From assembly GCF_900091855.1 (NCBI RefSeq), contig NZ_FMCH01000538.1:1-35222 (forward strand): 35,222 nucleotides of DNA, given 5' to 3'. This DNA is from Streptomyces sp. DvalAA-14 (GTDB lineage Bacteria > Actinomycetota > Actinomycetes > Streptomycetales > Streptomycetaceae). Shown here in pieces: positions 15,051 to 28,950 of this stretch. Under the pieces are notes generated by a model that did not search any database, was not told where the DNA came from, and worked only from the letters and a program-made list of their open reading frames with translations. Every line of letters starts with the position of its first letter. Position 1 is the stretch's first letter. The translations under genes were made by a program, and so were the position numbers.

Positions 15051-15959
15051 ATGCTTCCAACGTTCGTCATCGGGCTCCGCGAAGGTCTGGAGGCGGCCCT
15101 CATCGTGGGCATCATCGCCTCCTTCCTCGGCCAGCAGGGCCGCCGGGACGCACTGAAGAAGGTCTGGCTCGGGGTCGGCCTCGCGGTCGCGATCTGCGTG
15201 GTCGTGGCCATCGCGCTGCAGGTCTACTCCAGTGACCTGCCGCAGCGGCAGCAGGAGCAGCTGGAAACGGTGATCGGGCTGATCGCCGTGGTGATGGTCA
15301 GCTACATGGTGCTCTGGATGCGCCGCCACTCCCGGGACCTGCGCAAGGACCTGGAGGGCATGGCCGGACGCGCGCTGTCCGAGGGATCGGCCTCCGCGCT
15401 GGTGATGATGGCCTTCCTGGCGGTACTGCGCGAGGGCTTCGAGACCTCGGTCTTCCTGCTGGCCACCTTCAACGAGAGCAGCAACCCGGCGTACGGCGGC
15501 ACCGGCGCCGCGCTCGGCATCGTGCTGGCGGCGGCCATCGGCTACGGCATCTACCGCGGCGGGGTCCGGCTCAATCTGTCCCGCTTCTTCCGCATCACCG
15601 GGATCGTGCTGGTCCTGGTCGCGGCCGGCCTGGTGGCCACCGCGTTCATGACCGCCGTCGAGGGCGGCTGGCTGAACCAGGGCTCGCAGGCGTTCGACCT
15701 GTCCTGGCTGGTCCGGCCCGGCACCCCCACCTCCTCGGTGGTCACCGGCGTGCTCGGTATCCAGCCCTACCCCACCTGGCTGATGGTGGCCGGCTGGCTG
15801 ATCTACGCGGTCCCGATGACGGCCGTCGTGCTGTGGCCGGCCCGGCGCCGCAAGCCCCCCGCCCCGGTGGCGGCCCCGGACACCGCGCCCGAATCCGCGC
15901 CCGGATCCGCGCCGCAGACCTCGGCGGACGCCGCGGCGAGGGCCGCCCAGGCCGGCTGA
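15051..15959 (+). CDS. efeU: FTR1/EfeU-family iron permease
   Basis: A 302-residue polytopic membrane protein that moves iron across the cytoplasmic membrane after oxidation. Both FTR1 signature motifs are present: REGLE at residues 10-14 and REGFE at 127-131, with the acidic residues thought to bind Fe(III). About seven hydrophobic segments follow in the usual arrangement. The tail after residue 266 is Arg/Lys-rich then Pro/Ala-rich, likely cytosolic and disordered. ATG 15051 follows AGAGGG at 15040-15045. It leads the efeU-efeO-efeB run under an iron box. The next gene begins about 160 bp later, after a pyrimidine-rich stretch. Confidence 0.93.
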   Translation: MLPTFVIGLREGLEAALIVGIIASFLGQQGRRDALKKVWLGVGLAVAICVVVAIALQVYSSDLPQRQQEQLETVIGLIAVVMVSYMVLWMRRHSRDLRKDLEGMAGRALSEGSASALVMMAFLAVLREGFETSVFLLATFNESSNPAYGGTGAALGIVLAAAIGYGIYRGGVRLNLSRFFRITGIVLVLVAAGLVATAFMTAVEGGWLNQGSQAFDLSWLVRPGTPTSSVVTGVLGIQPYPTWLMVAGWLIYAVPMTAVVLWPARRRKPPAPVAAPDTAPESAPGSAPQTSADAAARAAQAG

Positions 15960-16122: not shown

Positions 16123-16125
16123 CCG

Positions 16126-17311
16126 TCGAACCCCCGTGCCAACCACCGCCGTGTCCTGGCCTGCGCCGCGACCGTGATCGCCGCGGGCCTGCTGCTGACC
16201 GCCTGCGGCGGCGACAAGGGGGGCGACGCCAAGGACCCCGCCGGCGCGAAGGGTGACAACGCCGCCGCCAAGTCCTCGACCGTCACCATCACCATCACCG
16301 ACAAGGACTGCGCGCCGAGCCCGGCCACCGTCCCGGCCGGCGCGGTGAAGTTCAACGTCACCAACAAGGACTCCGCCAAGGTCACCGAGGCCGAACTGCT
16401 CGACGGCGGCAAGATGCTCGGCGAGAAGGAGAACCTCACCCCCGGCCTGTCCGGCGACTTCTCGCTCACCCTGGGCGCGGGCACCTACCAGGTCTACTGC
16501 CCCGGCGCCGGCACCGACAAGACGGCCTTCACCGTCACCGGTTCCGCCGCGCACAGCTGGAAGGACGACCCGGCACTGGTCGCCGCCACCAAGAACTACG
16601 CCGCCTGGATCGACAGCGAGGTCAAGCAGGAGGTGACCGCCACCGACGCGTTCACCGCCGCGGTCAAGGCCGGCCAGACCGACCAGGCCAAGCTGCTCTA
16701 CGGCAAGGCCCGCGTCTACTACGAGCGCATCGAGCCCACCGCCGAGATCTGGGGCGACCTGGACGGCCGGATCGACGGCCGCGCCGACGACGCCGCCACC
16801 CCCGACCAGTTCACCGGCTTCCACCGCATCGAGCAGGCGCTGTGGCAGAAGAAGTCGCTGGCCGGCATGGACAAGATCGCCGACCAGCTCAGCGCGGACA
16901 CCCACGACCTGTACAGCAAGGTCGAGACCGTCGAGTACCAGCCGGCCGAGATCGCCAACGGCGCCACCGACCTGGTCAACGAGATCCAGTCCTCCAAGAT
17001 CACCGGCGAGGAGGAGCGCTACTCGCACATCGACCTGCTGGACTTCGAGGGCAACCTGGCCGGCGCCAACGAGGCGGTCACCGTCCTGCTGCCGGTCCTG
17101 AAGCAGAACGGACCCGGCCCTGGTCGCCACCCTCGCCGAGCGCTACCAGCAGACCGCCCAGGCGCTGGCGGGCTACGCGGCCAGGCCCGGCTACGAGCAG
17201 ACCGGTTACGTGGACTACAGCAAGGTCACCGACACCCAGCGGCGGGCGCTGTCGCAGACGGTGAACGCCTACGCTGAGGCCGTCTCCAAGATTGCCGGCC
17301 AGCTCGCCTGA
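16126..17311 (+). pseudogene. efeO: EfeO iron-uptake lipoprotein (cupredoxin plus M75 domain), frameshifted and lacking a start codon as read
   Basis: EfeO works outside the membrane with EfeU and EfeB in iron uptake. After a lipobox LLTAC come a cupredoxin-like domain (VTITITDKDCAPSPATVPAG) and an M75 imelysin-like domain with HRIEQALW. Two lesions show. First, the frame at 17107 reads AAC GGA CCC; dropping one G at 17110 or 17111 restores NDPALVATLAERYQQ and GYVDYSKVTD, ending at TGA 17309-17311, whereas the uncorrected frame ends at 17277 with unrelated residues. Second, signal-peptide-like codons SNPRANHRRVLACAATV start at 16126, but no ATG/GTG/TTG lies between an in-frame TGA at 16120 and GTG 16174, which would leave a 12-residue signal. 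AGGAG at 16114-16118 points to a start near 16125, where GTC stands. This is either decay or indel error. Confidence 0.82.
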
Positions 17312-17362: not shown

Positions 17363-18667
17363 GTGAACGACACTCCGGACATCACCCCCGAACCCCGTGT
17401 CCCCGAGCCGGGGACGGCCGTCAGCCGCCGCCGGCTGCTCGGCGCGGTGGGCGCCGGAGCAGCCGTGGCGGGCGCCGCCCTGGGGGCGGGCGGCGTGCTG
17501 GCCGCCCGGCACGACGACGACGGCGGCGGGGACGACTCCTCCGCCGCCACGGCGGCCACCGTCGACTTCCGTGCCGCGCACCAGGCGGGCATCGCCACCG
17601 CGTCCCAGGACCGGCTGTGCTTCGCGACCTTCGATGTCGCCCCGACCGCCGGCCGTGCCGACCTGGCGGATCTGCTGAAGACCTGGACGGCGGCCGCCGA
17701 GGCGATGGCGGCCGGCCACCCGGTCCCCGGGGACGAGGGCGACCTCAACTCCCCGCCGGACGACACCGGTGAGGCGGTCGGCCTGCTGCCGGGCCGGCTG
17801 ACCATCACCATCGGCTACGGCCCCTCGCTGTTCGACGGCCGCTTCGGACTGGCCGGCCGCCGCCCGTCCCTGCTCAAACGGCTGCCCCAGCTGCCCGGTG
17901 AGGACCTGGACCCGGCCAACTCCGACGGCGACCTGTGCGTCCAGGCCTGCGCCGACGACCCGCAGGTGGCCTTCCACGCGATTCGGAACCTGCGGCGGCT
18001 CGGCTTCGGCACCGTGGTGCCGCGCTGGATGGAGCTGGGCTTCGGCCGTACCTCCTCCACCTCGCCCCAGCAGGCCACCCCGCGCAATCTGATGGGCTTC
18101 AAGGACGGCACCCGCAACATCGACGCCACCGACGCGTCCTTGATGGGGCAGCACGTGTGGATCGGTGACGACGAGCCGCAGCGGTGGGCGCGCGGCGGCT
18201 CGTACCTGGTCAGCCGCAAGATCCAGATGCGGATGGAGCAGTGGGACCGGGACCGGCTCGGCGACCAGCAGGACGTCTTCGGCCGCCTCAAGACCAGCGG
18301 CGCCCCGATGACCGGCCGCAAGGAGTTCGACACCCCCGACTTCGCGGCCAAGGACAGCGGCGGGCAGTACGTCATCCCCGCCACCGCGCACATCCGGCTG
18401 GCCGCCCACGAGAACAACAACGGGCTGCGGATCCTGCGCCGCGGCTACTCCTACACCGACGGCATCAACCCGGAGACCGGCGACCTGATGGGCGGGCTGT
18501 TCTTCATCGCCTTCATGAAGAGCCCGGACCAGTTCGTCACCCTGCAGCGGGTGCTGGGGCGGCACGACGCGCTGAACGAGTACATCCAGCACATCGCCAG
18601 CGGCCTGTTCGTGGCCCCGCCCGGGCTGGCGGCCGGGCAGGACTGGGGCGGCCAGCTCTTCGGCTGA
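17363..18667 (+). CDS. efeB: Deferrochelatase/Dyp-type haem peroxidase EfeB
   Basis: A 434-residue Tat-exported haem peroxidase that completes the EfeUOB system, oxidising Fe(II) or releasing iron from haem. The twin-arginine signal SRRRLLG is at residues 21-27, followed by a hydrophobic alanine/glycine run and a cleavage region near AAR. The Dyp hallmark GFKDGTRN is intact with distal Asp248, and the proximal haem ligand is His343 in TAHIRLA. Length is normal. GTG 17363 is preceded only by a weak GAAAGAGAT. It begins 51 bp after the restored efeO stop and is co-directional with it, so the transcript is shared. Efe function may be lost if efeO is truly broken, but EfeB and EfeU themselves look intact. 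Confidence 0.94.
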   Translation: MNDTPDITPEPRVPEPGTAVSRRRLLGAVGAGAAVAGAALGAGGVLAARHDDDGGGDDSSAATAATVDFRAAHQAGIATASQDRLCFATFDVAPTAGRADLADLLKTWTAAAEAMAAGHPVPGDEGDLNSPPDDTGEAVGLLPGRLTITIGYGPSLFDGRFGLAGRRPSLLKRLPQLPGEDLDPANSDGDLCVQACADDPQVAFHAIRNLRRLGFGTVVPRWMELGFGRTSSTSPQQATPRNLMGFKDGTRNIDATDASLMGQHVWIGDDEPQRWARGGSYLVSRKIQMRMEQWDRDRLGDQQDVFGRLKTSGAPMTGRKEFDTPDFAAKDSGGQYVIPATAHIRLAAHENNNGLRILRRGYSYTDGINPETGDLMGGLFFIAFMKSPDQFVTLQRVLGRHDALNEYIQHIASGLFVAPPGLAAGQDWGGQLFG

Positions 18668-27491: not shown

Positions 27492-28448
27492 TCAGTCGAG
27501 GTAGCCGCGCAGCTGGTCGGCGAAGGTGTGGTCGCGCAGTTTGCCCAGCGTCTTGGACTCGATCTGGCGGATGCGTTCCCGGGTGACGCCGAAGATCCGG
27601 CCGATCTCCTCCAGGGTGCGCGGGCGGCCGTCGGCGAGGCCGTACCGCAGCTGGACGACCTTGCGTTCGCGCTCGCCGAGGGTGGACAGCACCGCCTCCA
27701 GGTGCTCGCGCAGCAGCAGGAAGGCGGCCGACTCGACCGGTGAGGCGGCGTCGCCGTCCTCGATGAGGTCGCCGAGCGCGACGTCGTCCTCCTCGCCGAC
27801 CGGGGCGTGCAGCGACACCGGCTCCTGGGCGAGCCGCAGCACCTCGCAGACCCGCTCCTCGGTCAGGTCGAGCTGGGCGGCGACCTCTTCGGTGCTGGGC
27901 TCGTAGCCGCGTTCCTGGAGCAGGCGGCGCTGGACCCGCACCACCCGGTTGATCAGCTCGACGACGTGCACGGGCACCCGGATGGTCCGGGCCTGGTCGG
28001 CCAGCGCGCGGGACATGGCCTGGCGGATCCACCAGGTGGCGTAGGTGGAGAACTTGTAGCCGCGGGCGTAGTCGAACTTCTCGACCGCGCGGATCAGGCC
28101 GAGGTTGCCCTCCTGCACCAGGTCCAGCATGGTCAGGCCGCGGCCGATGTAGCGCTTGGCCACCGAGACGACCAGCCGCAGGTTGGCCTCGATCAGCCGG
28201 CGCTTGGCCATCCGGCCGAGCACCACCAGCCGGTCGAGGTCGACGGCGAGCTGGGAGTCCGGGTCGGGGAAGGCGGCGAGTTTCTCCTCGGCGAACAGGC
28301 CGGCCTCGACCCGGCAGGCCAGCAGGACCTCTTCCTCGGCGCTGAGCAGCGGGATACGGCCGATCTCGCGCAGATACTGGCGGAAGAGGTCGGCGGACGG
28401 GCCGGCCGTGTCGGGCCGCAGCGGTTTGACGCGGGGGGCGGCGGCCAC
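27492..28448 (-). CDS. hrdA: Primary-like RNA polymerase sigma factor, Hrd type (probably HrdA)
   Basis: A sigma-70 family factor carrying regions 1.2 to 4.2. Region 1.2 is [21 protein letters not shown], regions 2.1-2.4 include [37 protein letters not shown] and [16 protein letters not shown], and region 4.2 is [20 protein letters not shown]. As read, this frame gives 318 residues from GTG 28448, which has no ribosome site. A better start, GTG 28725 with GGAGG 8 bases before it, lies in another frame; removing one C from the CCCC run at 28467-28470 (minus-strand sense) joins them, giving D-P-A-D-P-P-D-P-V. The HrdA call rests on adjacency to dnaG, as I recall for S. coelicolor, and on the short N-terminus; another Hrd paralogue is possible. 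It lacks the long acidic N-terminus of the main sigma HrdB. Confidence 0.88.
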
Positions 28449-28725
28449 GGGATCCGGGGGGTCCGCGGGGATCCGGGTGGTCTGCCGGGTCCGCGGGGTC
28501 CGCCGGGTCCGGGGCGAAGGGCTCGTGGTCCGGGTCGTCGGGGTCGTCGGCGCTCCCGAAGCCGTTCGCCGGGTCGGGGGTCTCGCCCTCCCGGCGCTGT
28601 TCCGGCACCCGGGGCGCGCCCGCGTCCCCGGGCGGCTGAGGCAGGAACTCCATGGCGACCACCTCGGCTACGGCGGGCAACGGGGGTAATTCGGCCTGGA
28701 CCTGGATCGGGCTACGGGTCTGCAC
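28449..28725 (-). pseudogene. hrdA: Out-of-frame N-terminal extension of the sigma-factor gene
   Basis: From GTG 28725, with an ideal GGAGG ribosome site at 28735-28739, the minus strand reads VQTRSPIQVQAELPPL, then an acidic Pro/Asp repeat ([10 protein letters not shown]), before leaving the sigma frame at the CCCC run 28467-28470. An acidic low-complexity N-terminus before region 1.2 is common in Hrd-type sigma factors. It should be read as one gene with 27492-28448 if the extra base is an error. Confidence 0.6.
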
Positions 28726-28950
28726 GGAAGCGACCTCCGCGGTGAGCGCGTCGTTGGGCTCGGAGACGGGCTGAGGCCGGGCGGTTCACGTCGTTCCGGC
28801 ACAGCCGGGCCCCCGGACGCCGTCACCCAGTGTGGCCCACGACACACCTCCGCTACGAGGGTCGTGCGTACCCTTTTTCACGCCACGTCACCATCCGCGT
28901 CCGCGCCGTGACGCGCTCCCCCGGCGCACGATCCGCCGGGCGGGCGCGGG
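28726..28950 (-). other. Intergenic region between dnaG and the sigma-factor gene
   Basis: These 225 bp separate two co-directional minus-strand genes and presumably hold a promoter for the sigma factor. The minus strand shows GAAAAAGGG at about 28880-28872 and GGAAC at 28799-28795, the latter resembling the -35 of ECF-sigma promoters, but no matching -10 is convincing. No other gene is seen. Confidence 0.35.

Follow-up and report, generated by a model that had tools for sequence, protein, structure and literature searches.

In the sequence as deposited, the efeO gene of this Streptomycetaceae draft genome is damaged at both ends, because one extra base disrupts its start codon and another displaces its C-terminal tail from the reading frame. 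Relative to close orthologues the gene carries these two one-base insertions (16127 and 17109) and shows no clear decay elsewhere, and we consider both to be probably the result of sequencing or assembly error. The window, by which we mean the whole stretch of DNA that was analysed, is a contig of 35,222 bases (C58) from a 7.94-Mb draft split over 669 contigs. The efeUOB layout within it is ordinary, with efeO occupying approximately 16125–17311. The gene itself is an ordinary bacterial iron-uptake gene with nothing novel in kind, and loss by frameshift in efeUOB is already known. The features are as follows.

15051–15959, + strand: efeU, FTR1-family ferrous-iron permease, intact (NF041756, 315 bits against a cut-off of 255; PF03239)
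16127, + strand: extra base within the efeO start codon (gap column in the alignment of 12 relatives; GTG behind AGGAG in 15 of 15)
16174–17277, + strand: efeO open reading frame as deposited, 367 amino acids (NF041757, 349.1 bits, profile positions 2–301 of 359; PF13473 and PF09375)
17109, + strand: extra base in the C-terminal region of efeO (gap column against orthologues; HMM frame change at 17110/17111; bases of the relatives)
17111–17311, + strand: displaced last 66 codons of the M75 domain and TGA, frame +1 (tblastn and alignment)
17363–18667, + strand: efeB, DyP-type peroxidase, intact (TIGR01412, 464.7 bits against a cut-off of 428)

The operon neighbours of efeO are both present, and since each exceeds its NCBIfam cut-off the first-pass annotation of efeU and efeB as intact is upheld. 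The deposited efeO frame consists of a short signal-peptide remnant, a cupredoxin domain (PF13473, 43.8 bits), most of an M75 domain (PF09375, 103.1 bits) and an out-of-frame tail rich in arginine and proline that runs to 17277, as had been described. Despite the wrong tail, the NF041757 score exceeds the curated cut-off of 270, which assigns the product to EfeO. The truncation is evident in the profile matches: that to PF09375 stops at position 235 of 288, and that to NF041757 ends at position 301 of 359, compared with 358 of 359 in the orthologue from the relative G032. The sequence LLTAC is one that we take to be a lipobox-like motif. The metal-site motifs HxxE and GEEDRY, described for EfeO/EfeM in the accessible text of one article (PMC9174327), correspond to GFHRIE and the GEEDRY-like GEEERY, both of which precede the frame shift. 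The gene thus resembles the EfeO of EfeUOB systems (NF041757; cupredoxin followed by imelysin/peptidase-M75) in domain order, in these three motifs and in its place between efeU and efeB, but differs in having a disrupted start codon and its last 66 residues out of frame.

At 17107–17115 the window reads AAC GGA CCC. A C-terminal frameshift had been proposed here, and homology-free and homology-based methods agree on it, placing the change at 17109–17111. A codon-composition HMM, trained on long open reading frames of three relatives and independent of alignment, leaves frame 0 for frame +1 at 17110/17111. Searches by tblastn with the EfeO proteins of G032, G023 and G029 follow frame 1 up to 17115 and frame 2 starting from 17111. 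The displaced frame is open from 17111 to the TGA at 17309–17311 and, as predicted, gives DPALVATLAERYQQ...GYVDYSKVTD...KIAGQLA, which in the tblastn matches is 88%, 82% and 74% identical to the EfeO ends of G032, G023 and G029, respectively. An EfeO C-terminus that is complete in one frame is thus lacking in the deposited sequence, its tail lying in frame +1. When 17111–17308 was searched in isolation, or cut at 17274, no Pfam family was matched.

The proposal of a one-base insertion stands, but the inserted base is not the G that had been named. The gap column against the orthologues falls on C17109, and this is the base we assign, because all 15 close orthologues read Lys-Asp at the shift site (DNA AAG GAC). 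Deletion of a G instead would give Asn-Asp, a pair absent from all 15. Gap columns were taken from an alignment of 12 relatives, and the sites of three further loci (L007, L012 and L014) were read separately, giving 15 close relatives.

A wider reading of the genus points the same way. We searched 34 relatives and read the 29 whose best match could be made into a locus, leaving out G001, G002, G013, G016 and G018, where matches were of about 30% identity or less. In all 29 efeO is open through the shift site to an M75-type tail. Homologues using the uncorrected tail, which would have contradicted the frameshift, were not found among these 29. That tail does match the DNA of relatives in eight rows (for example G032:C1:2439570-2439749, 73%), all of which, by their coordinates, overlap the efeO match of the same genome in another frame. 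Five weak rows (28–30% identity) extend to query residues 320–348. With every relative read using the displaced frame, the alternative already posed, that efeO is either broken or mis-sequenced, is supported. Open frames of 626–726 residues running through efeO in some relatives had suggested a fused EfeU–EfeO; this was rejected because efeU has its own stop in all 16 loci that were looked at.

The second insertion, at 16127, had been overlooked in the first-pass annotation. In all 15 close relatives AGGAG is followed by a short spacer and a GTG start codon that lies 16–17 codons further upstream than the start of the deposited frame. In the window the corresponding sequence is AGGAGCTGACC GTCG, in which the GTG is lost. 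The sole in-frame ATG, GTG or TTG that is left is the GTG at 16174, ten residues ahead of the lipobox cysteine, fewer than a normal lipoprotein signal needs. As written, the gene accordingly lacks both the start codon and the full export signal of an EfeO.

Two explanations have to be weighed for this damage. We favour error because there are two insertions without decay, because the draft is fragmented and because the lesions were seen in one genome only. A fragmented, high-GC draft would then have acquired sequencing or assembly errors at 16127 and 17109. We infer that the insertions are absent from the organism's own DNA; if they are indeed errors, as is probable, EfeO is probably produced as a normal lipoprotein in the living strain. 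Less expected of errors is that neither insertion is in a homopolymer run and that both are in the middle of a contig of 35 kb. The explanation that we regard as possible, although clearly the less probable, is that the insertions are real and very recent, depriving efeO of its start codon and of the 66 codons at its end and leaving EfeUOB ferrous-iron uptake inactive. Two hits in one gene would suit an efeO that was already dispensable, but a real loss has to be reconciled with intact efeU and efeB genes and with the lack of clear decay apart from the two insertions.

The substitution pattern of efeO is the same as in intact relatives. For the body of the gene dN/dS is 0.40 against G032 and 0.45 against G023, and for the displaced tail it is 0.28 and 0.35; the comparison value between G032 and G023 is 0.39. 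Nonsynonymous and synonymous changes number 27:24 on the branch leading to the window, compared with 59:53 on the branches of the two relatives (Fisher p = 1.0). Apart from the two insertions, no further in-frame stop was found in efeO. Successive inactivation of a real kind would be expected to leave decay, while a very recent loss would leave no signal of relaxed constraint. One result could hint at such relaxation, and it is the sole one: with only G032 and G023 as the comparison, the window's own branch carries 18 substitutions in the 198 bases of the tail and 33 in the 960 of the body, a higher density in the tail (p = 0.002) that is not seen on the G032 or G023 branches. The 18 tail changes fall on codon positions 1, 2 and 3 in numbers of 3, 4 and 11, favouring position 3. 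Measured against 12 relatives, the private bases of the tail number nine here and 0–10 in the others, with one relative at ten. We read the denser tail as ordinary variation.

A real loss would also leave the strain with no backup that we could see, since searches with PF09375 and with the second M75 gene of G032 both return efeO only. The profile search found no second PF09375 (M75) gene in the strain's own genome, efeO being the only place, and the search of that genome with the G032 gene gave efeO alone. The second M75 gene of G032 (L107:983-1924) is about 28% identical to EfeO.

In support of a real loss there is documented precedent in Escherichia coli, where efeUOB has been inactivated by frameshift. 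The accessible text of one article gives the transporter of strain MG1655 as non-functional through a frameshift in efeU (PMC2808357), and that of another states the same inactivation for the efeUOB operon (PMC7549933). The window resembles this cryptic operon, as those portions of the two articles present it, in having a frameshift in one operon gene (PMC2808357; PMC7549933). It differs in that the permease gene efeU was hit there, while here it is efeO, twice, by insertions that may not be real in the organism. The E. coli K-12 efeU frameshift was reportedly described by Cao et al. in 2007. If the insertions are real, efeO would represent a further silencing of efeUOB by frameshift, after that of efeU in E. 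coli K-12.

The literature on frameshifts restricted to one genome bears on the choice as well. In the available portion of a GeneTack survey, which covered 1106 complete genomes, singleton frameshifts validated by BLAST are expected to be sequencing errors and not genuine indels; elsewhere in that portion, indel mutations in pseudogenes are allowed for confirmed singletons as well as errors (PMC3711429). Like the singletons described there, the efeO lesions were seen in one genome only and homologues confirm both sides; unlike them, efeO has two sites and comes from a draft, whereas the survey dealt with complete genomes (PMC3711429).

The direction of the change permits a further explanation, in which translation tolerates the insertions and full-length EfeO is made, +1 slippage around CCC-G (17113–17116) being one example of how. 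A +1 shift is what would be needed and the displaced frame retains its codon pattern. We nevertheless judge such recoding to be very improbable. None of the 29 relatives read has a frame change at the site, so that the conservation expected of a programmed frameshift is missing, and the lost start codon is left unexplained. Moreover, CCC is followed by GGC, a codon expected to be common in a GC-rich genome. We give almost no weight to the prospect of a living strain whose efeO retains both the displaced start and the +1 break and yet yields EfeO through recoding combined with a non-standard start.

To place efeO against its genomic background we used a single DNA-level scan for frame changes. 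For the strain's own genome, with 146 kb of coding sequence aligned, it gave four, compared with one in 125 kb for G032 and one in 126 kb for G023 (two per 251 kb), these control relatives being in long contigs. The control genomes thus show that such events, each in a single gene, occur in the genus or its data, which lends some support to a real loss. The four own changes kept are those in the efeO tail, in a sigma-factor gene of the window, at L065:19457/19458 and at L075:5923-5925. Counting both efeO lesions, the comparison is five against two (P = 0.068); without efeO it is three against two (P = 0.26). The insertion at 16127 cannot be seen by the scan and entered the first figure alone, as a manual addition; this tilts that figure towards error, and the scan would have missed similar insertions in the controls. 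The direction of the survey leans towards error, and the excess is not significant.

The sample comprised the window and 11 of 30 own stretches that could be placed on G032 or G023; 18 were unplaced and one (L063) was dropped, having no match at the threshold. The row C40 was dropped from the G032–own and G032–G023 counts because it precedes the probable start codon of its gene, which reduced the own rows from five to four and the G023 rows from two to one, and the one remaining change in G023 is taken from the scan count alone. A looser first survey had given eight (G032–own), ten (G023–own), four (G032–G023) and ten (G023–G032) frame changes, and a rule requiring 60-base flanks was adopted because many of these were short or alignment-dependent. 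The HMM, which needs no homology, found two frame changes in the window, ten in 184 kb from 20 other own stretches and 11 in 399 kb from 20 control stretches of G032, G023 and G029. Six of the 11 control changes lie in L042, a 20-kb stretch of G029. For this reason, and because the same controls had served to train the model, the HMM scan was kept as support only. An earlier version (two in the window, 23 own and 41 control) was replaced, as it counted many gene overlaps.

The practical consequence concerns annotation. An automatic pipeline would probably label efeO a pseudogene, from which a reader could infer that ferrous-iron uptake has been lost. Such a call hinges on a pair of single-base insertions in a fragmented draft; caution is advisable before physiology is built on it.

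Several other frame changes were observed in passing. In the window, a primary-type sigma-factor gene (27492–28767, − strand) has a frame change at about 28430–28510, in low-complexity C-rich sequence, relative to both G032 and G023; the best match of its G032 orthologue is to NF004561, under the cut-off. Two further changes lie on other contigs of the draft. The one at L065:19457-19458 is in an aldo-keto-reductase-like gene; the one at L075:5923-5925 is in a gene whose orthologue matches mannosylglycerate hydrolase under the cut-off. At L037:11125-11126 a gene of 831 amino acids is frame-broken in G032, a single-contig genome, and has an open frame in both G023 and the window.
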